From the NCBI GenBank assembly GCA_035532835.1, contig DATKQG010000079.1:1-34737 (forward strand): DNA of 34,737 nt, read 5' to 3'. The DNA comes from Candidatus Dormiibacterota bacterium (GTDB lineage: Bacteria > Vulcanimicrobiota > Vulcanimicrobiia > Vulcanimicrobiales > Vulcanimicrobiaceae). Positions 22,888-34,737 of the stretch are shown piece after piece. Every line of letters starts with the position of its first letter. Within the stretch, counting starts at the first letter, position 1. The notes under the pieces are model-generated. The model saw nothing but the letters and a program-made list of their open reading frames with translations. It had not been told where the DNA came from and did no database searches. The position numbers and the translations under genes are program-made.

Positions 22888-23346
22888 ATGAGCCGGCTTG
22901 TTGTGAATGGGAAACCACATAGCGTCGACGTGGATCCCGAGATGCCGCTGGTATTGGTGCTTCGCGAACGCCTCGGCCTGACCGGCACGAAAGTGGGCTG
23001 CGCGCATGGTGCGTGTGGGGCTTGCACGGTCCTGATCGCCGGGGAAGCACGGCACGCTTGCATGCTTACGCTCGCCGACGTTGGCGAACGCGAAGTAACG
23101 ACGATCGAGGGCTTGGGCACAACGCAGCACCCGCATCCGCTGCAGCGAGCCTTCATCGAAGAACAAGCCACGCAGTGCGGCTACTGCGTGGGCGGCCTCG
23201 TTCTCGCTGCCAAGGCGCTGCTCGACGTAAACCCCCATCCCAGCGCGGCGGAGATTCGAACCGCGCTCGAACACAACTTGTGCCGCTGCGGATCGCACGT
23301 CCGCGTGGTACGCGCGGTGCAGCGCACCGCCCAGCGCGGCGCATGA
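22888..23346 (+). CDS. (2Fe-2S)-binding small subunit of a molybdenum hydroxylase (IorA/CoxS-like)
   Basis: 152 aa. The N-terminal plant-type ferredoxin domain holds the first cluster through Cys38, Cys43, Cys46 and Cys58 (GCAHGACGACTVLI...HAC), and the C-terminal helical domain holds the second with Cys97, Cys100, Cys132 and Cys134 (QCGYC, CRCG). All eight Cys are present. It passes electrons from the molybdenum site of the next gene's product; there is no FAD-subunit gene, which resembles isoquinoline 1-oxidoreductase or nicotinate dehydrogenase types that pass electrons to a cytochrome. Its stop overlaps the start of the large subunit (ATGA). The gene is divergent from the dodecin. Confidence 0.92.
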   Translation: MSRLVVNGKPHSVDVDPEMPLVLVLRERLGLTGTKVGCAHGACGACTVLIAGEARHACMLTLADVGEREVTTIEGLGTTQHPHPLQRAFIEEQATQCGYCVGGLVLAAKALLDVNPHPSAAEIRTALEHNLCRCGSHVRVVRAVQRTAQRGA

Positions 23347-25391
23347 CCGCGCAATTTTTCGGGACGCTTCCCAAGCGGCTCTCCGATTGGCTTTCGATCG
23401 AACCGGACGGGACGATTACCGCATTCGTCGGGAAGGTCGAGCTTGGAACCGGCGTGCAAACCGCGCTCGCCCAAATCGTCGCCGACGAACTCGACGTTTC
23501 ATTCGCATCCGTGCGCATCGTCCAAGGCCGCACCGGCATCACGCCGGATCAAGGCTTCACGGCCGGTAGTCAAACTCTCCAAACCGGCGCGCCGCCGCTG
23601 CGGAGCGCCGCCGCGCAGGCTCGCGAAGCGCTCCTGGACGCAGCCGCCGAGAAGCTGGGCGTCCCGCGCGCCGCTGTACGCACGGACGACGGAGCCATCG
23701 TCGATACTGCGGGCAGATCGCTCTCGTACGCGCTGCTTGCCGCCGGTAATCGGCTTCTCGATCGCCCTTTTGACGCGCACGTCCCCCGCTTGGAAACGCG
23801 GCGCGCCGTAGGCCGGTCCGTCGCTCGCGTCGACCTTCCGTCAAAAGTTTTCGGCACGTTCACCTTCCTACAAGATTTCCGCGTCGAAGGTATGTGGCAC
23901 GCGCGCGTAATTCGCCCACCGGCAGTGGGCGCGCACCTCCTCTCCGTTGACACGTCATCGATCGCTGCGATTCCCGGCGCTCGCGTCGTACGAGAAACCG
24001 ATTTCCTCGCGGTCGCCGCGTCGGAGGCTTGGGACGCAATGCGTGCCGCACGCGCGCTAAAAGCCCAATGGGAAGACGTAGGCCTTCTCCCGCCCTTCGA
24101 CGCGCTCTATCGCTCGCTTCGCGATGGTCCGTCCACCGAGCAAGTGCTCGCCGGCGGCGATCCATTCGATACCGCATCGCACGCTCGCGTCGCGCGCGCG
24201 GTATACGAATGGCCGTTCCAATCGCACGCGTCGCTGGGTCCCTCAGCCGCAGTCGCCGACGTGCGAGCGGATGGAACGAAGATCTGGGCCGCAACGCAAA
24301 GCGTTTACGCACTGCGAGGATCGATCGCAGCACTGCTCGCCGTTCCGGAGGATTCCGTCTACGTTGAATACGTGGAGGGAGCCGGTTGCTACGGGCACAA
24401 CGGCACCGACGACGCTGCCGCAGATGCCGCCCTCATCTCGCGCGCGATCGGCCACCCCGTCCGCGTGCAGTGGAGTGTGGAAGACGAGTTGGGATGGGAT
24501 CCCAAAGGCCCCGCGATGCTCGTGGAGCTCGCGGGCACCGTCGATGGGGACGGCCACATCGATTCCTGGTCGAGTGAGGTTTGGACGCCGGGGCACACTT
24601 CGCGCGGAGGGCCCGGCCAGCCGAATTTTATTGCGGTACAACTGCTGGGGCACGAACTCCCGAAGAGTCACTCCGGTGGCGGCGATCGCAACGCGCTCCA
24701 CCTCTATGACATCGCATCGCAGCGTGTGGTCATGCACTGGAAACCGGACGCAGCACTCCGCCAATCGGCTCTACGCTCGCTCGGATCCGCTCAGAACACG
24801 TTCGCCAACGAATCGTTCGTCGACGAGCTCGCGCACCTCGTGCGAGCCGACCCGCTCGCATTCCGCCTGCAACATTTGAAAGACCCGCGCGCGCGCGCCG
24901 TCCTGGAAGCCGTCGCTCGCATCGCCGGCTGGCAGGGTGCGCTCGATCTGCGCGGCGTCGCGTTTCATCGCTACGGCAACAGCGGCGCCTACGTCGCCGC
25001 GATCGCCGAATGTTCGGTCGACTCACAAATGGGGATTCATTTCGATCGTTGCTTTATCGCGCACGACTGCGGCGAAATCGTCAATCCGAACGGCCTGCGC
25101 AATCAGATCGAAGGCAACGTCATCCACGCTGCATCGCGCGCCCTGCTCGAAGAGGTCGCATTTGACGAGCGCGGCGTTACGAGCAACGTCTGGGATCGCT
25201 ATCCGATTCTTCGTTTCCCAGACATCCCGGAGATCGCGATCGAACTGATCGACCGCCCGAACGAGCCTTCCCTCGGCGCAGGCGAACCAGCCACCCCCGT
25301 TATCGCGCCCGCGATAGCGAACGCAATATACGCCCTGACCGGCCAACGCATTCGGAGAGTTCCGCTTCGCGCGATCGCTACGGACCGATGA
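23343..25391 (+). CDS. Molybdopterin-binding large subunit of xanthine-oxidase-family hydroxylase (IorB-like)
   Basis: 682 aa from ATG 23343 overlapping the small-subunit stop. The longer open frame to 23013 overlaps that gene and is not used. Two Ald_Xan_dh_C-type domains: first part with EPDGTITAFVGKVELGTGV and FGTFTFLQDFRVEGMWHARV, then the cofactor region GCYGHNGTDDAAADAALISR with VQWSVEDELGWDPKGP, then YGNSGAYVAAIAE and GEIVNPNGLRNQIEGNV. The conserved GEP with the expected catalytic Glu648 is in LGAGEPATPV. It is shorter than typical IorB (~740 aa). Predicted reaction: hydroxylation of an aldehyde or N-heterocycle with water as oxygen source. No signal peptide is visible. The substrate is unknown. 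Confidence 0.88.
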   Translation: MTAQFFGTLPKRLSDWLSIEPDGTITAFVGKVELGTGVQTALAQIVADELDVSFASVRIVQGRTGITPDQGFTAGSQTLQTGAPPLRSAAAQAREALLDAAAEKLGVPRAAVRTDDGAIVDTAGRSLSYALLAAGNRLLDRPFDAHVPRLETRRAVGRSVARVDLPSKVFGTFTFLQDFRVEGMWHARVIRPPAVGAHLLSVDTSSIAAIPGARVVRETDFLAVAASEAWDAMRAARALKAQWEDVGLLPPFDALYRSLRDGPSTEQVLAGGDPFDTASHARVARAVYEWPFQSHASLGPSAAVADVRADGTKIWAATQSVYALRGSIAALLAVPEDSVYVEYVEGAGCYGHNGTDDAAADAALISRAIGHPVRVQWSVEDELGWDPKGPAMLVELAGTVDGDGHIDSWSSEVWTPGHTSRGGPGQPNFIAVQLLGHELPKSHSGGGDRNALHLYDIASQRVVMHWKPDAALRQSALRSLGSAQNTFANESFVDELAHLVRADPLAFRLQHLKDPRARAVLEAVARIAGWQGALDLRGVAFHRYGNSGAYVAAIAECSVDSQMGIHFDRCFIAHDCGEIVNPNGLRNQIEGNVIHAASRALLEEVAFDERGVTSNVWDRYPILRFPDIPEIAIELIDRPNEPSLGAGEPATPVIAPAIANAIYALTGQRIRRVPLRAIATDR

Positions 25392-27897: not shown

Positions 27898-28341
27898 TTA
27901 CGATGCAAAGCTCAATACGGCCGAACACACCACTCTCCCGTCCACGCTGGCCCGACCCTCGACTTTGGTAATGGAACGGCGCTGCGCCGCGATCCAAGCA
28001 ACGAGTTCGAGGCGATCGCCGGGTAGCACGAGGCCACGAAAACGGGCCTTGTCGATACTCGCGAAATACGGCGGTTGCCGCGGAACTTCGTGCGGCTCGA
28101 GTACGATGCAACCGGAGAGCTGCGCCAATGCCTCGATAATGTACGCCGGCGGTATCGACAGCAAACCGGGGAATTGAAGCCACGGCTCGTTGCACGAAAT
28201 GAGCTTGTACCCTCGCGCGGACACGCCCGGGTTCAACTCCACGATCCGGTCAACCAGCAAGAACGGAAACCGGTGCGGCAGCACCGACAGAATGTATCGA
28301 ATGCCGCGCGTTTCGTTCGCCGTCTCGCAGTCGCTACACAT
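27898..28341 (-). CDS. FabZ-like hotdog hydroxyacyl-ACP dehydratase
   Basis: 147 aa from ATG 28341, which lies inside the last codons of the hydrogenase small subunit gene (8-base overlap), so it is coupled to it. FabZ signature: YILSVLPHRFPFLLVDRI with the catalytic His23, and PPAYIIEALAQLSG with the catalytic Glu70; the usual GHFPG-x-P-x-x-PG loop is changed to QFPGLLSIPPAY, lacking the His. The N-terminus has a CSDC motif. Typical FabZ removes water from 3-hydroxyacyl-ACP in fatty-acid synthesis; here it stands in a hydrogenase operon without other fatty-acid genes. It may act on a special acyl chain or have changed its role. Confidence 0.82.
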   Translation of the reverse strand: MCSDCETANETRGIRYILSVLPHRFPFLLVDRIVELNPGVSARGYKLISCNEPWLQFPGLLSIPPAYIIEALAQLSGCIVLEPHEVPRQPPYFASIDKARFRGLVLPGDRLELVAWIAAQRRSITKVEGRASVDGRVVCSAVLSFAS

Positions 28342-28747
28342 CGTCGAGCAATCGCGCCGCTTCGCGCAAGCCTCGCACGATCTCGTCCGGGCTCGGGGGG
28401 CACCCGCGTACCGAAACGCGCGCCCCAAGTTCGGGCCCGGCACCATCGCCCGCCGAGCCCACGCCGCACCAAGGGCCCACGCCGATCGCACAATCGCCGA
28501 CGGAGACTACGACCCGCGGATTCGGCGTCGCCGCAAGCGTCGCAGCCGCCGCGTCCCGCATAGCTTCGGTCATCGGCCCAGTCACCGTTACAACGTCGGC
28601 GTGACGCGGCGAAGCGACCAGATCCCATCCATGCTGCGTGATATCGTAAGCGGGCCCGGCCAACGCGTTCATCTCGTGCTCGCATCCGTTGCAACTGCCG
28701 CACACGAGGTGGCGAATGGCCAAGGAACGTTCGTAGATTCTCGACAT
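28334..28747 (-). CDS. hyfI: Group 4 [NiFe] hydrogenase small subunit (HyfI/NuoB-like)
   Basis: 137 aa from ATG 28747 (TAATG overlap with the large subunit). Contains one predicted [4Fe-4S] site near the NiFe centre: CGSCNGCEHE with Cys19 and Cys22 (Cys16 is extra), GDCAIG with Cys86, and RGCPPSPDEI with Cys116. This is the reduced, single-cluster small subunit of group 4/complex I-like enzymes, not the three-cluster type of uptake hydrogenases. Extra Cys94 is in GPWCGVG. A ferredoxin-like subunit to take electrons further (HyfA/HyfH type) is not present in the window. The long upstream extension of the frame overlaps the large subunit and is not used. Confidence 0.9.
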   Translation of the reverse strand: MSRIYERSLAIRHLVCGSCNGCEHEMNALAGPAYDITQHGWDLVASPRHADVVTVTGPMTEAMRDAAAATLAATPNPRVVVSVGDCAIGVGPWCGVGSAGDGAGPELGARVSVRGCPPSPDEIVRGLREAARLLDDV

Positions 28748-30144
28748 TATCGGTCCATGCACGAATAACAGAGATTGAAACTTTTGTTGACGAGCGGAAA
28801 ATCCGGAATGATATTGCCTTCCATCGCGCGCGCGGCCGCCGGCCAATTTCGATACGAGGCGGATATGACGTGAAGACGCTCGATCGTGCCGTCGCCGCTT
28901 ACGTCGATCGAGAGCGTTTCGACGCCGCGCGAGCCCTCGAGCGCCGTGGTCGTGCGCCCCGTTCCGCATTCGACGGTTTGCGGATCTTGGATTGACGAAT
29001 CCCCAAGCACCGCGAGCGATGCATCGATCAGGCGGAACGACTCGGCGATCTCGCGCCGTTTTACGCTGCAGCGCGCCAGAACGTCTCCACCCTTTTCGTT
29101 CGCGATTCGGACGTCCAGGCCCGCGTATGCTCCGTACGCGCAGAACGTCCGCACGTCGAGCTCCACTCCGGAGGCGCGGCCCGCCGGTCCGCACGCCCCG
29201 AACAGCCGGGCCGTTCGGCCATCAAGCAACCCCGCGCCGGCGAATCGGCGAACCACCGAGCGGTTCTCAAACAGCTCCTTCGCAAAGCGTTCGACATCCC
29301 TGCGGACCGCGTGCAGATCCGCGCGCAACGCCTGTGGATCGCTTAAGACTCCCGTTCGCACGCCTCCGGGAACGATCGCGTCAAACATCAGCCGATGCTG
29401 CGTCGCGGCCGCGCAGAGCTGCAGGATGCGCTCTTTTAGTCCGAGCCCCATTGTCAGCCCGCGGCCGTAACCCGCTCCGGAAGCCGCGTTCGCAAGGTCG
29501 AAGACGTGGTTGTACAAGCGTTCGAGTTCTGCCAGCACCACGCGTGCGTACTCGGTCGCCTCGTCGCACTCGATCCCGCCCAGCGACTCCAGCGCGAGCG
29601 CGTAGCTCCACGAACGCGCGATGCTGCACCCGCCGCAGATGCGCGCAATCGACGGCGCGATTTCAAGCGCATTACGGCCGCTAAGGGCGCGCTCGATATC
29701 CCGGTGGCCGTATGAAAACTGCGTATCGAGGTGAATCGTCGTTTCGCCGCCGGTGCTAAAGGTGAATCGCCCCGGCTCGATGATACCGGCATGGACCGGC
29801 CCCACCACCACGACGTTAACGCCCTCGCCCTGCGCGGTCATCGCTTCGGGAACGGGCCCATCGCCGATATAGAGCCGACGCGTATCCGGATGCCCGTCAA
29901 AGGCGATCCCCTGCTTCTCCCGCATCTCGCGCTCGTGCCAATCGTAGAGCGGCATCTCGTTCGCCATCGATGGCAACGCCCCGACGCCGGCATCCACCGT
30001 GGCGCACAGCACACCCTGCGGACGAAGAAAGAGATAGCGTACCTGCTTCTCGCCGGCATAGGCTCCGAGCGCCTGCGCCGTTGCTGCCAACTCTGCTACG
30101 CTCTCCCGCACGCGCTCCGGTGCGATCGCAATCTCTGCGTACAT
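28747..30144 (-). CDS. hyfG: Group 4 [NiFe] hydrogenase large subunit (HyfG/NuoCD-like) with altered metal motifs
   Basis: 465 aa from ATG 30144. An N-terminal NuoC-like part (~1-110) is joined to a NuoD-like catalytic part. Metal site: L1 motif ARICGGCSIARS with Cys170 and Cys173, L2 motif FNLCYSCMDR with Cys459 and Cys462, so all four Cys ligands of NiFe hydrogenases are present, unlike in complex I. Oddities: the His three or four residues after the L1 CxxC is Arg177; L2 has Asn-Leu before the Cys in place of Asp-Pro; and the chain ends at Arg465, just where maturation peptidases cut other large subunits, so no C-terminal extension exists. The stop overlaps the small-subunit ATG (TAATG). 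Confidence 0.9.
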   Translation of the reverse strand: MYAEIAIAPERVRESVAELAATAQALGAYAGEKQVRYLFLRPQGVLCATVDAGVGALPSMANEMPLYDWHEREMREKQGIAFDGHPDTRRLYIGDGPVPEAMTAQGEGVNVVVVGPVHAGIIEPGRFTFSTGGETTIHLDTQFSYGHRDIERALSGRNALEIAPSIARICGGCSIARSWSYALALESLGGIECDEATEYARVVLAELERLYNHVFDLANAASGAGYGRGLTMGLGLKERILQLCAAATQHRLMFDAIVPGGVRTGVLSDPQALRADLHAVRRDVERFAKELFENRSVVRRFAGAGLLDGRTARLFGACGPAGRASGVELDVRTFCAYGAYAGLDVRIANEKGGDVLARCSVKRREIAESFRLIDASLAVLGDSSIQDPQTVECGTGRTTTALEGSRGVETLSIDVSGDGTIERLHVISASYRNWPAAARAMEGNIIPDFPLVNKSFNLCYSCMDR

Positions 30145-31556
30145 TACGGCCTGTTCACCATCGCCGCGAGCAGCCCGTACACTGCATGGCTCCACGGGAC
30201 GAACGGCACGGCGACCAACGCCGACGAAGCCGCCACGACGCAGGTTACGGCGACCGTTGCAAGGCGCAGCTTCGGCGCCGGCAATCCGTGTGGGTGGGTA
30301 CCGGACTCGGTGGTAATCGCCAGCCGCAACAACGCGGCAAACGCGATCAGCAATCCCACCAACGCGATGGCAAGCGCGCTCCACGCGCGTACCTGTACCG
30401 CGGCAACGACGATCAGGAGTTCCGAGAAAAACAGCCCGAACGGCGGCAGCCCGGCCAGCGCAATCATTGCCGCGAGCAGGGTACGCCCGCCGCGCACGCT
30501 CCAGAGCCCGCGCAAGTCCCGGATGCTCGTAGATCCGTATTGTTCCTGCACCATACCAACCGAGAGAAACGCCATCGACTTTGCGAAGGCGTGATTGAGA
30601 ATATGATAGAGGGCGGCAAACGCTGCAAGCGGCGTAGCGAGGCCCAGCGCAAATGCCACGATGCCCGCATGCTCGACGGTCGAGTAGGAAAACAAACGCT
30701 TGACGTCACGTTGCGCTAACATCAGCAGCGACGCGATCAGGATCGATACGGCACCGCCGTAGAGCAAGATGCCGTCGAAGAGCCCGGCGGAGGGTGTTTG
30801 TGCGGCGACGGACTGGACGCGCAGGATGGCGTACAGCGCGCAGGATACCAGCAAACCCGAAAGCAGCGCGCTCACCGGGGCCGGGGCCTTGGAGTGCGCG
30901 TCCGGCAGCCACGCGTGCATCGGCACCAAGCCGGCCTTGGTGGCAAACCCCACCAGCATTAACGTCAGCGCGACGCGCGTTAAGGGGATATCCATCAGCG
31001 CCGCATGCGGTATCAGCGCGCTCCACGAGAGCGCCTGGCCCGGAGCGACGCCCGCCATCATCGCCGCTCGTCCGAGAAGCAACATCCCGATCAACGCGAT
31101 CGCAATGCCGAAGCTGCAGAGCATCAGATACTTCCAGGCCGCTTCGAGCGCGGCTTTGCCGCCCGAGTATGCGACCAAAAACGTGGTTGCGAGCGTCGTT
31201 GCCGATATACCGATCCAGATGCCGATGAACCCCGCGCTCGTAACGGTGAGCAGCATGCTGCTCCAAAATGCGCCGAGCAAGATGAAATAGGCGGGCTTGC
31301 GCGACCACGGCTCCATCGGATTGTTCCCGCCTTTTGGCAGAATGCCGGTCGAGAACAGCACGACGATCGCGCAGAGGAGCGAAACGCTCACCGCAAAGAT
31401 CCCCGAGAGCCAATCCATCGTCGACGCGGCGAGGATCGTTCCGATGAGGCCCGCGCCGGCAAGGAACACGCGGGCAACCGATCGCAGCGACCGGTTGGCG
31501 AAAAGCGCGGCCAGCGTCAGCGAAACGAACGGAAACAGGACAACGATCGTCGTCAT
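30144..31556 (-). CDS. hyfF: Hydrogenase-4 membrane subunit HyfF (NuoN/MrpD-like proton channel)
   Basis: 470 aa, about 13-14 membrane helices. Contains the family block FATKAGLVPMHAWLPDAHSKAPAPVSALLSG, with the Lys and His residues of the proton path, and VKRLFSYSTVEHAGIVAFALG with a further Lys and Glu. Such antiporter-like subunits in complex I and group 4 hydrogenases move H+ or Na+ across the membrane when electrons flow. It overlaps hyfE by 4 bases upstream and hyfG by one base downstream (TAATG), which argues for a single stoichiometric operon. The closest name is HyfF, but HyfF and HyfD are similar, so the letter is a best match. Confidence 0.9.
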   Translation of the reverse strand: MTTIVVLFPFVSLTLAALFANRSLRSVARVFLAGAGLIGTILAASTMDWLSGIFAVSVSLLCAIVVLFSTGILPKGGNNPMEPWSRKPAYFILLGAFWSSMLLTVTSAGFIGIWIGISATTLATTFLVAYSGGKAALEAAWKYLMLCSFGIAIALIGMLLLGRAAMMAGVAPGQALSWSALIPHAALMDIPLTRVALTLMLVGFATKAGLVPMHAWLPDAHSKAPAPVSALLSGLLVSCALYAILRVQSVAAQTPSAGLFDGILLYGGAVSILIASLLMLAQRDVKRLFSYSTVEHAGIVAFALGLATPLAAFAALYHILNHAFAKSMAFLSVGMVQEQYGSTSIRDLRGLWSVRGGRTLLAAMIALAGLPPFGLFFSELLIVVAAVQVRAWSALAIALVGLLIAFAALLRLAITTESGTHPHGLPAPKLRLATVAVTCVVAASSALVAVPFVPWSHAVYGLLAAMVNRP

Positions 31557-32161
31557 CCGCGCAAGTTCCGTAGCGATCGCATATCCAAGTGCGGGTCGTG
31601 TTGTATCACCGCCCGCGCCACCGCGATCGCAATGAAGGTTGCGAAAACCGCGTCGAAGGTGTCGGCCAGCTCGATCGCGCCCGGCAACGATGGCGCAAAC
31701 ACCGCCGCAGCCAGCGTTACCGCGCTCCCGAGCGCCAACAATCCCACCACGTGCGCCAGCAGATTGCGGTGCAGAATCACCACGCAGATGCTCGCGAAGA
31801 ACGCATAGAACACGGTCGTGGCGCCGGGTGCATCGGAGAACGCCTGGGCGTGGCTGAAATACCGAGCAAGGTACAGCGCTACGGCAACCACGCCGATCCG
31901 TACGCCAAGGTTGAAAGACGGCACTAAGTCATCCGGCACGCGATATCGCATGCGCAGCCACAGCACGGCCGCCGGACCAACCACTACCTTGACGAATGCC
32001 AACATCGCAAACAGCGTAATGCCCGTGGCGTTTGCCTGTGGCCCCTGCGGGTGGGCGATCCATAGGACGCTCAGGGTAAAGACCACGTAGGCGACCAGCG
32101 CCGAACGTAACCGCGAATCGATCACGAGCACCGCCCCGGCGAGAATAATCACTACGCTCAT
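31553..32161 (-). CDS. hyfE: Hydrogenase-4 membrane subunit HyfE
   Basis: 202 aa, six predicted membrane helices, usual length for HyfE. It starts VVIILAGAVLVIDSRLRSAL, has FVKVVVGPAAVLWLRMRYRV in the middle, and ends with FDAVFATFIAIAVARAVIQ, the C-terminal pattern of the family, whose second half is related to NuoK. It is thought to help anchor the complex in the membrane and to form part of the ion path. Overlaps of 4 bases to hyfC and hyfF on each side. HyfE is typical of group 4 hydrogenases and absent from complex I, supporting the hydrogenase identity of the operon. Confidence 0.88.
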   Translation of the reverse strand: MSVVIILAGAVLVIDSRLRSALVAYVVFTLSVLWIAHPQGPQANATGITLFAMLAFVKVVVGPAAVLWLRMRYRVPDDLVPSFNLGVRIGVVAVALYLARYFSHAQAFSDAPGATTVFYAFFASICVVILHRNLLAHVVGLLALGSAVTLAAAVFAPSLPGAIELADTFDAVFATFIAIAVARAVIQHDPHLDMRSLRNLRG

Positions 32162-33018
32162 CGCAGCACGTCCGCGATTCGCAAGCCGATGCTCGCCAGC
32201 GAAAGGATCAGTGCGGACGCAAAGAGTTGCGGCACTTCAAAGAGGCGCAGCTTGGCGTAAACCGTTTCGATGAGCACGATACAAGCGCCCACGGCGGCAA
32301 TCCACCCCACCGTCGCGACCCCGCTTCCGGGCATCAGTAACGCGGCTAACACGAAGAATCCAGCCTGCCGCAGATATGCGGCGTAGTGCAGCATCGCGAG
32401 TTGCCAGCCCGAATACTCCAGGACGAGCCCCTCGTGGATCATCGTGAGCTCGTAGTGCGTCTGTTGATTATCGACCGGGATTCGCGCCGTCTCGGAGAGC
32501 ATCACGAGCAGTAACGCCCCGGCCGCTAACGCGTCGGTCCATATCCCGTTCGGAGCGTGGGCGAGGCTACCGTCCGAAAGGAACGCACTCCCCAAGAGCG
32601 CGAGGATCAACGGCGCCTCGGTCAGCGATGCAAACGCGATCTCTCGCCCGGCGGCCATGCCTTCGAAGGCCGAACGTGTATCGAGCGCCGCGAGCACCGT
32701 CACGAATCGCCCGAGCGCGAGCAGCAACGCCAGCGCAATGGCATCGATACGCCAGGCCGATGCATCCGTCGCCGTGATGCTCGGAACGACCGCGACGAAC
32801 GTTACCGCTACGCCGAGGGCTATGCCCGGGGCGACGAGCACGAGCATCGAACGCTGTGGAATCACCGCGTCTTTGCCCCAGAGTTTACGCAGGTCGCGAT
32901 ACGGCTGCCACACCGATGCGCCGGGCCTGCCTTGCATCCGCGCGCGCAGCCGGGCTAACGTCCCTTGTAACAGCGGGGCGAATAGCGCGAGGAGGGCGAT
33001 CTGCACACCCTGGTTCAT
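32158..33018 (-). CDS. hyfC: Hydrogenase-4 membrane subunit HyfC (NuoH/HycD-like)
   Basis: 286 aa from ATG 33018, eight predicted membrane helices. The family region is clear: LARLRARMQGRPGASVWQPY near the N-terminus, FEGMAAGREIAFASLTEAPL in the middle, and ETARIPVDNQQTHYELTMIHE, the HycD/HyfC version of the NuoH quinone-channel loop. It links the hydrophilic hydrogenase part to the proton-moving subunits. A 4-base overlap joins it to hyfB upstream and to hyfE downstream. The longer open frame up to 33333 overlaps hyfB and has no support. Confidence 0.92.
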   Translation of the reverse strand: MNQGVQIALLALFAPLLQGTLARLRARMQGRPGASVWQPYRDLRKLWGKDAVIPQRSMLVLVAPGIALGVAVTFVAVVPSITATDASAWRIDAIALALLLALGRFVTVLAALDTRSAFEGMAAGREIAFASLTEAPLILALLGSAFLSDGSLAHAPNGIWTDALAAGALLLVMLSETARIPVDNQQTHYELTMIHEGLVLEYSGWQLAMLHYAAYLRQAGFFVLAALLMPGSGVATVGWIAAVGACIVLIETVYAKLRLFEVPQLFASALILSLASIGLRIADVLR

Positions 33019-34737
33019 CGCGCCACCGCCAATGCGGCAAGAAACGCGGCCAGCGCGTACCCAAGATACACGCGCAGAAACCCGCCCTGAAACCTTCGTG
33101 CTCCGCGCGAGACCCGCTGCACGAATGCGGCGATATTGCGGGCAAGCTCGTCGAACACATAGCGCGTTGAGAGCACGTAGGTAATCCGCGTCGGTATCCA
33201 TCGCGAAGTTCCGTACTCCATGCGTCGCTCGCGCTCGGGAAATAACGCGAAGCCGAAGATGAGCCGCAGCGGCTTCGAAAGCACCGTTGCAGTATACTGC
33301 GAGCGCAACGTTACCGCCGATCCGCACGTCCAAGTGCCCGCTTCGCGCACGCCGCGCCGCCTCGCCATCACGACGGCAAACACGGCTCCGGCGATCGGCA
33401 GCAACGCGAGAAACGGCAATACCGAGAGATTCGGGACCGGTAAGGGTGTCTCACCCATCATGCCGCCCGCCAGTTGCGAGAGCGGGCGAATCACTACGCT
33501 TGGTATCACGCCGATCGCAACGCTCGCCGCGCCGAGAAACGCCAGCGCCGCGACGGACGCATCGAACGGCTCCGGCTCGACCGGCGCGGGGTGTCGCGGA
33601 TCGCCCAGAAATCCGACGCCGTAGAGTTTCGTAAAGGCTGCCGCAGCAAGGCCGCCGGTCATCGCCAGCGCTGCAATACCGAAGAGAGCGAACGCTTTGA
33701 ACCAGGGCGAGCCGACGGCGAGCGCACGAATAAATCCGTTAAATACGAGCCACTCGGATGCGAAACCGTTGAGCGGCGGGAGCGCCGACGCCGCCATGCA
33801 CGCCAGTAACACCCAGGGAGCCGAGCGTCGCAGCGGTCCCTTCGCAAGGCCGCCTAGTTGATCGAGATTGGTCACGTGCAAGCGCTCGACCAACGTTCCG
33901 GCGCCAAGGAACAAGAGGCCCTTGAACATCGCATGATTGATGCTATGGAATATCAGCGCGATGACCGCCAACGCCGCGAGCGCCGGCTGGTGCATCGCTG
34001 CCGCGAGTACCGCCAGGCCCAACGTCGCGACGATGATGCCGACGTTTTCGATGGAGCTAAAGGCCAGGAGCCGTTTGATATCGCTCTCGATCGTCGCGTA
34101 AAGCCCTCCCAGCAACGCGCTGAGCGCGCCCGCAACGAGCAGCGCAACGCCGATGGCCCACGGCGCCGGCGCCGCCAGCACGAAGCACGCAAGCAGCAAG
34201 CCGTAGACCGCGATCTTGAGCATGATACCGGAGAGCATTGCGGACGCATTCGCGGGAGCCGCCGGATGCGCGCGAGGAAGCCAGAATTGCAGGGGCACGA
34301 GGCCGGCCTTGGAGCCGAATCCGATCGCCGCCAGCGACAACGCAACGGTTCGCACGCCGATTGAAAGCGTTCCCGACGCGAGCGCGATGCCTGCGAACGT
34401 CCCCGTGCCGGCATGCACGGCGAGGATTGCCAGAAACGCGGTAATGCAGAGCGCGCCCAGTTGACTGACGAGCGCGTACGAGAATACGGCTCGACGCACG
34501 TAGCGTTTGCCATGGTTCGTCGCAACGAGAAACGCCGAGACGAGCGACATCCCTTCCCAAAACAAGAGAAACGCGGCGATACTCTGCGCCAGCAACACAC
34601 CGGTCATTGCCGCGCTGAACAGTGCTAAGCGCATGCCGTCCGACGGCGATCCCCGCTTCAAGCCCCATATCGCGACCGCAATCGAAACGACGGCGTTGAT
34701 GATGAGGAACGGCGCCGCCGGCAGCGACGACCCGACG
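33015..34737 (-). CDS. hyfB: Hydrogenase-4 membrane subunit HyfB (NuoL-like), 5' end outside the window
   Basis: About 574 codons in the window, open to the right edge, so the N-terminal 80-100 residues are missing. It is an antiporter-like proton-conducting subunit: FGSKAGLVPLQFWLPRAHPAAPANASAMLSG (proton-path Lys and His), IKRLLAFSSIENVGIIVATLG, and a C-terminal FGYAL-like long amphipathic part (LRLIFGFALFPERERRMEYG and RYVFDELARNIAAFVQRVSRG), typical of HyfB and HycC. It is the first gene of the operon seen here; the promoter lies to the right of the window. The stop overlaps hyfC. Confidence 0.92.
   Translation of the reverse strand, partial: VGSSLPAAPFLIINAVVSIAVAIWGLKRGSPSDGMRLALFSAAMTGVLLAQSIAAFLLFWEGMSLVSAFLVATNHGKRYVRRAVFSYALVSQLGALCITAFLAILAVHAGTGTFAGIALASGTLSIGVRTVALSLAAIGFGSKAGLVPLQFWLPRAHPAAPANASAMLSGIMLKIAVYGLLLACFVLAAPAPWAIGVALLVAGALSALLGGLYATIESDIKRLLAFSSIENVGIIVATLGLAVLAAAMHQPALAALAVIALIFHSINHAMFKGLLFLGAGTLVERLHVTNLDQLGGLAKGPLRRSAPWVLLACMAASALPPLNGFASEWLVFNGFIRALAVGSPWFKAFALFGIAALAMTGGLAAAAFTKLYGVGFLGDPRHPAPVEPEPFDASVAALAFLGAASVAIGVIPSVVIRPLSQLAGGMMGETPLPVPNLSVLPFLALLPIAGAVFAVVMARRRGVREAGTWTCGSAVTLRSQYTATVLSKPLRLIFGFALFPERERRMEYGTSRWIPTRITYVLSTRYVFDELARNIAAFVQRVSRGARRFQGGFLRVYLGYALAAFLAALAVAR

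Follow-up and report, generated by a model that had tools for sequence, protein, structure and literature searches.

Does a large subunit that retains all four cysteines of a [NiFe] hydrogenase site, in an altered motif context and with no C-terminal extension, still serve H2 chemistry? The question is raised by a six-gene operon in the window analysed here, a stretch of 34,737 nucleotides that is contig C79 of a Ca. Eremiobacterota metagenome-assembled genome (2.89 Mb, 120 contigs, 96.3% complete). An earlier note on this DNA had proposed either an active hydrogenase that does without peptidase maturation or a non-hydrogenase with a changed site and possibly a new function. This reading is partly supported: the second alternative stands as far as sequence can take it, but the first does not.

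The operon and its large subunit

The operon lies on the minus strand in the order HyfB-HycD-HyfE-HyfF-large-small. The HyfB-like antiporter subunit (33015-34736) matches NF005086 (3e-130) from profile position 118 onward, its N-terminus being lost at the contig end. It is followed by a HycD/NuoH-like membrane subunit (32158-33018), whose start at 33018 was placed from homologue lengths and the overlap with HyfB, a HyfE-like membrane subunit of 202 aa (31553-32161; NF008556, 7e-9), and a HyfF-like antiporter subunit of 470 aa (30144-31556; NCBIfam hydrogenase 4 subunit F, 4e-89), the latter two matches being below the curated cut-offs. The large subunit (28747-30144, 465 aa) and a NuoB/HycG-like small subunit (28334-28747, 137 aa) complete the set, and no electron-input subunit is encoded among the six genes. 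In many Eremiobacterota loci and in Melainabacteria, a 103-aa ArsR-type gene stands upstream of hyfB, a position that is off the contig in the window; beyond this gene, no conserved partner was found generally beside the operon across the loci. In several Melainabacteria loci (e.g., L089:10958-11548), the small subunit is directly followed by a gene for a Gpr1/Fun34/YaaH-type membrane protein. Elsewhere in the window, the plus strand carries a molybdenum hydroxylase-type pair (22888-25391), in which a 152-aa protein whose Cys motifs look iron-sulfur-like precedes a MoCoBD-domain large subunit.

The large subunit reads from an ATG at 30144 to a TAA at 28749-28747 and consists of a NuoC-like N-terminus (residues ~1-96) and a NuoD/HycE-like domain (~105-465). 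Pfam assigns Complex1_49kDa and Complex1_30kDa to it, and all NCBIfam matches are below their cut-offs. Among proteins of solved structure, HycE from the E. coli formate hydrogenlyase is closest in sequence (4e-49), and HycE (7z0s_E) is also the best PDB match of the AlphaFold2 model (mean pLDDT 91.7; TMq 0.91, rmsd 2.8). Direct reading and alignment to HycE bear out the motifs described in the earlier note. The L1 motif RICGGCSIARS (residues 168-178; 29611-29643) has C170, C173 and R177 at the positions of HycE C241, C244 and H248, and the L2 motif with the C-terminus, KSFNLCYSCMDR (residues 454-465; 28750-28785), has C459 and C462 at C531 and C534, and N457-L458 at D529-P530. Compared with the group 4 [NiFe] motifs RxCGxCxxxH and DPCxxCxxH/R, the four Cys are present, the His is replaced by Arg, and DP is replaced by NL. 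The last Cys, C462, is followed by M-D-R465 and the stop, as had been noted, and R465 is equivalent to HycE R537, beyond which HycE runs for another 32 residues.

A sequencing error hiding an extension is excluded, as the last base of the stop codon is the first base of the small-subunit ATG and every full-length relative surveyed ends at the same column. The missing extension is nevertheless less telling than the earlier note had it: the large subunits of NuoD and Ehr type end at this column too, and hydrogenases of groups 2b, 2d, 4c, 4e and 4g also have none (PMC7294309). Extension loss is ordinary in the complex I superfamily.

In the pocket, the HycE residues E193, H284, R395, E437 and R478 are kept, and D192 is replaced by Ile. 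The canopy Asp, HycE D529, has been described as strictly conserved across hydrogenases and complex I (PMC9474812), whereas it is replaced by Asn in 46/46 sequences with the four Cys and in 18 of 19 relatives without them. The change of H248 to Arg is found only in the Eremiobacterota sequences that we call class A (31/31), to which the window protein belongs. With complex I NuoD, the protein shares the fold, the end column and the conserved His/Arg/Glu network, but the Tyr and Asp of NuoD are G171 and N457 here, which argues against a canonical quinone site, and the four Cys are found in the window protein only.

Four cysteines among relatives

Named relatives at 47-86% identity are mostly Ca. 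Eremiobacterota genomes assembled from metagenomes. The 11 relatives of the same family found by whole-protein search (49-86% identity) all have the L1 CxxC with Arg, the L2 sequence KSFNLCYxC and the same end. The 31 distinct sequences from Eremiobacterota share the abrupt end and show no exception at the four Cys or at R177, whereas Cys makes up 61% at most of any other column in which it occurs. The contig-motif scan used KSFNLCY or VVGPVHAGI as seeds, so that conservation of the first L2 Cys in it is partly due to selection; this bias spares the other three Cys and the set of 11. Across three groups, the four Cys are kept in 46/46 sequences, with 47 of 361 alignment columns invariant. Judged from these alignments, the pattern of four Cys with Arg is more than chance. 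The L2 sequence FNLCYxC is not unique, as it is common to Melainabacteria and Eisenbacteria, whose large subunits have the same L2 end and the usual L1 His.

Other relatives have lost the site. Most of the four Cys are gone in Paraburkholderia, Ferrovaceae and others, all four in a further group of operons from Eremiobacterota (EremioB), and the site is lost too in plasmid- or megaplasmid-borne relatives (Rhodococcus, Methylocalor, Cupriavidus, Rhizobium and Allomeiothermus). In these Cys-less relatives the complex persists, with ends of the GHDL or ETDR type, and in most cases both L1 Cys are lost, which indicates that their replacement is tolerated elsewhere. Two side observations were made: the Eremiobacterota contig PLTN01000170.1 (L058, L072) has two class A operons in opposite orientations, and in genome G020 a second, partial large-subunit frame (L040:9764-10396; 50% identity over 144 aa) occurs shortly after the operon.

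The placement among large subunits that the earlier note had called for was obtained by a quick tree method, after removal of the L1 and L2 motifs from the alignment, and with long branches flagged. The window protein and its relatives form one Ehr-type group apart from HycE/HyfG/MbhL and NuoD (99% SH-aLRT, with four hydrogenase reference rows only: HycE, HyfG, Azospirillum HyfG and MbhL, the last read from a printed alignment). Class A is one clade (100%) with a stem of ~1.5 changes per column, along which the four Cys survive. The branching order within the Ehr-type group is weak, and a single clade of the four-Cys rows is not rejected (AU p = 0.078).

The operon resembles those of Ehr complexes in its parts (HyfB, HycD/NuoH, HyfE, HyfF, large and small), including antiporter- and NuoH-type membrane subunits, as well as in the lack of an extension, the tree grouping and, in many loci, the upstream ArsR-type gene. 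Ehr complexes are defined by having lost the NiFe ligands, however, whereas in this branch the four Cys are all present and Arg stands for the L1 His; we thus describe the complex as an Ehr-like variant and not as a plain Ehr member. The mycobacterial Rv0082-Rv0087 locus and the Rhodococcus pRZP3 operon have the same six subunits in a different gene order, and the pRZP3 large subunit, unlike that of the window, is Cys-less (NLSYAGNDL). With HycE/HyfG of group 4a, the protein shares the NuoC-NuoD fusion, the four Cys and most second-sphere residues, but it differs in D529 to Asn, H248 to Arg and the absent 32-aa extension; the operon is also without a HycF/HyfH ferredoxin subunit or FDH.

The small subunit has four proximal-cluster Cys (C19, C22, C86 and C116) with a hydrogenase-type SCNGCE motif. 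These four ligands are present in 31/31 class A sequences, 5/5 of the Eisenbacteria group and 14/14 proteobacterial-type relatives without the four large-subunit Cys, and are absent as a set from 12/12 Melainabacteria, 7/7 EremioB and Allomeiothermus. All four combinations of the Cys site and the cluster ligands kept or lost occur among the relatives, including neither. In the Melainabacteria small subunits, the last three ligands are lost in all 12 and the first is kept in 9. In the membrane arm, all groups compared have HyfF K207, K286, K326 and E379 as well as HyfB K118 and K247 without exception, whereas HyfB K196 gives way to Arg or Glu in EremioB, and two Melainabacteria rows have Lys in place of HyfB E303.

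Genes for cofactor assembly

The NiFe(CN)2CO cofactor is the product of the Hyp proteins. Six of them are required for it (PMC12134894). We surveyed 48 genomes with a four-Cys complex, namely the source genome and 47 others, by profile cut-offs on metagenome-assembled genomes. HypA, HypD, HypF and HycI are above cut-off in the same eight genomes, and HypB is in seven of these (in the eighth, G079, its 77 bits fall short of the cut-off, 121). The other 40, which include the source genome and seven relatives that are 93-98% complete, have none of the five above cut-off. The maturation peptidase is missing from the source genome, in that a profile search found no HycI; HypA, HypD and HypF had no match there either, and HypB reached 24 bits against a cut-off of 121.2. 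Sub-threshold HypB matches, which occur in many four-Cys genomes and in most control genomes, were not counted as HypB, and G006 has one sub-threshold HypA match. A nickel-only site loaded by HypA/HypB is not supported by these scores.

All eight Hyp-positive genomes also carry a separate match to a NiFe large subunit, which in G008, G019, G020, G060 and G070 lies within ~6 kb of hypD. These results suggest that the Hyp genes there have another client. In the Melainabacteria and their kin (L089-L091, L093, L094, L098, L099, L102, L104, L107, L108 and L111), the large subunits keep the four Cys, with the L1 His where readable, whereas at least three of the four cluster ligands are gone from the small subunits (C to E, G and D/N); HypD was found in none of their genomes tested. 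The site in these complexes need not exchange electrons with that cluster, given that it is kept when the cluster ligands are lost.

Possible roles of the cysteine site

We consider it probable, with moderate confidence drawn from the comparisons above, that the window protein serves as the large subunit in an Ehr-like complex of six subunits that carries no NiFe(CN)2CO and activates no H2, and that its four Cys hold a centre formed independently of Hyp proteins. Given that the assembly genes for a nickel-iron centre are absent, the Cys site has probably been put to another use within a membrane ion pump, with a different metal or in a different role. In the proposed mechanism, the antiporter- and NuoH-type membrane arm, with its proton-path residues intact, would work with a small subunit expected to ligate one proximal [4Fe-4S] cluster. 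The former [NiFe] pocket, which has kept the four Cys and most second-sphere residues while losing the canopy Asp and the L1 His, would contain no NiFe(CN)2CO and would not split H2. The four Cys would hold most likely one tetrathiolate metal ion (Zn or Fe); metal binding is suggested by their invariance and by the CxxC...CxxC layout. This putative ion may stabilise or tune the pocket beside the cluster, and cluster or pocket chemistry would drive ion movement through the membrane arm. The electron partner would be soluble and encoded outside the operon; because no electron-input subunit is in the operon, we infer a redox role in class A from the cluster ligands.

A metal-free alternative, which we regard as unlikely, is that the four Cys act beside the cluster as a thiol/disulfide redox site comparable to that of ferredoxin-thioredoxin reductase, by which the complex would reduce or sense disulfides or persulfides. 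Two CxxC pairs next to an intact proximal-cluster motif in Eremiobacterota would suit such chemistry, and the related complex MBS, a non-hydrogenase within the complex I superfamily, uses its proximal cluster to reduce polysulfide (PMC7684303). However, MbsL has two of the four Cys and a three-Cys proximal cluster, whereas the window complex has four Cys and a four-ligand, hydrogenase-type motif, and MBS catalysis does not depend on the two Cys that MbsL has close to its cluster (PMC7684303). The site is also retained in Melainabacteria after the loss of the cluster ligands, and no partner or operon gene indicates sulfur chemistry.

It is more doubtful still that the four Cys are relics of a hydrogenase ancestor, kept by chance or packing with no role of their own. 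They are ancestral, being present in the hydrogenase outgroups, and have been lost from relatives whose complex persists, but their retention in every one of the 31 Eremiobacterota and 46 overall sequences, in an alignment with so few invariant columns, argues against chance, as does the frequent loss of both L1 Cys in relatives without the site.

A functional [NiFe] hydrogenase that matures without a peptidase like the H2-sensing and Ech enzymes, and in which Arg has replaced the L1 His, is rejected as highly improbable on the absence of Hyp proteins: all four Cys and the five HycE pocket residues are kept, HycE is the best structural match, and extension-free hydrogenases exist that still receive NiFe(CN)2CO from the Hyp machinery (PMC7294309), yet besides HycI, HypA, HypD, HypF and an above-cut-off HypB are absent from the source genome and 39 of the 47 others, and the L1 His is replaced and the canopy Asp lost clade-wide. 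An H2-activating [NiFe] enzyme is thus very unlikely in view of the missing Hyp and HycI proteins, the second NiFe subunit in Hyp-positive genomes and the change of the canopy Asp to Asn.

The wider group poses a question of its own. EremioB (L047, L049-L054) and Allomeiothermus (L140) have neither NiFe-site Cys nor a full set of cluster ligands, and their HyfF proton-path residues are invariant, with most of the HyfB ones kept; to judge from these residues, their complexes are possibly pumps without any redox centre. Ehr complexes have been described as lacking NiFe ligands, with functions unknown or untested (PMC6349859, PMC4378227), and a path from hydrogenase to complex I via Cys loss has been proposed (PMC7684303). 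The four-Cys branch without Hyp genes is a step in that proposed path, and it offers a natural experiment on the capabilities of the pocket when NiFe(CN)2CO is missing. Automatic annotation could label the window protein a hydrogenase and infer H2 metabolism, an inference that is unsafe here. For the relatives without any redox ligands, one has to ask what powers their pumps. We put forward, tentatively and as somewhat less than an even chance, that an old [NiFe] pocket has been refitted with a new, Hyp-independent metal centre, and that the wider group, where the Cys site and the cluster go missing independently of each other and in some complexes together, may include membrane pumps driven by a source other than electron flow.
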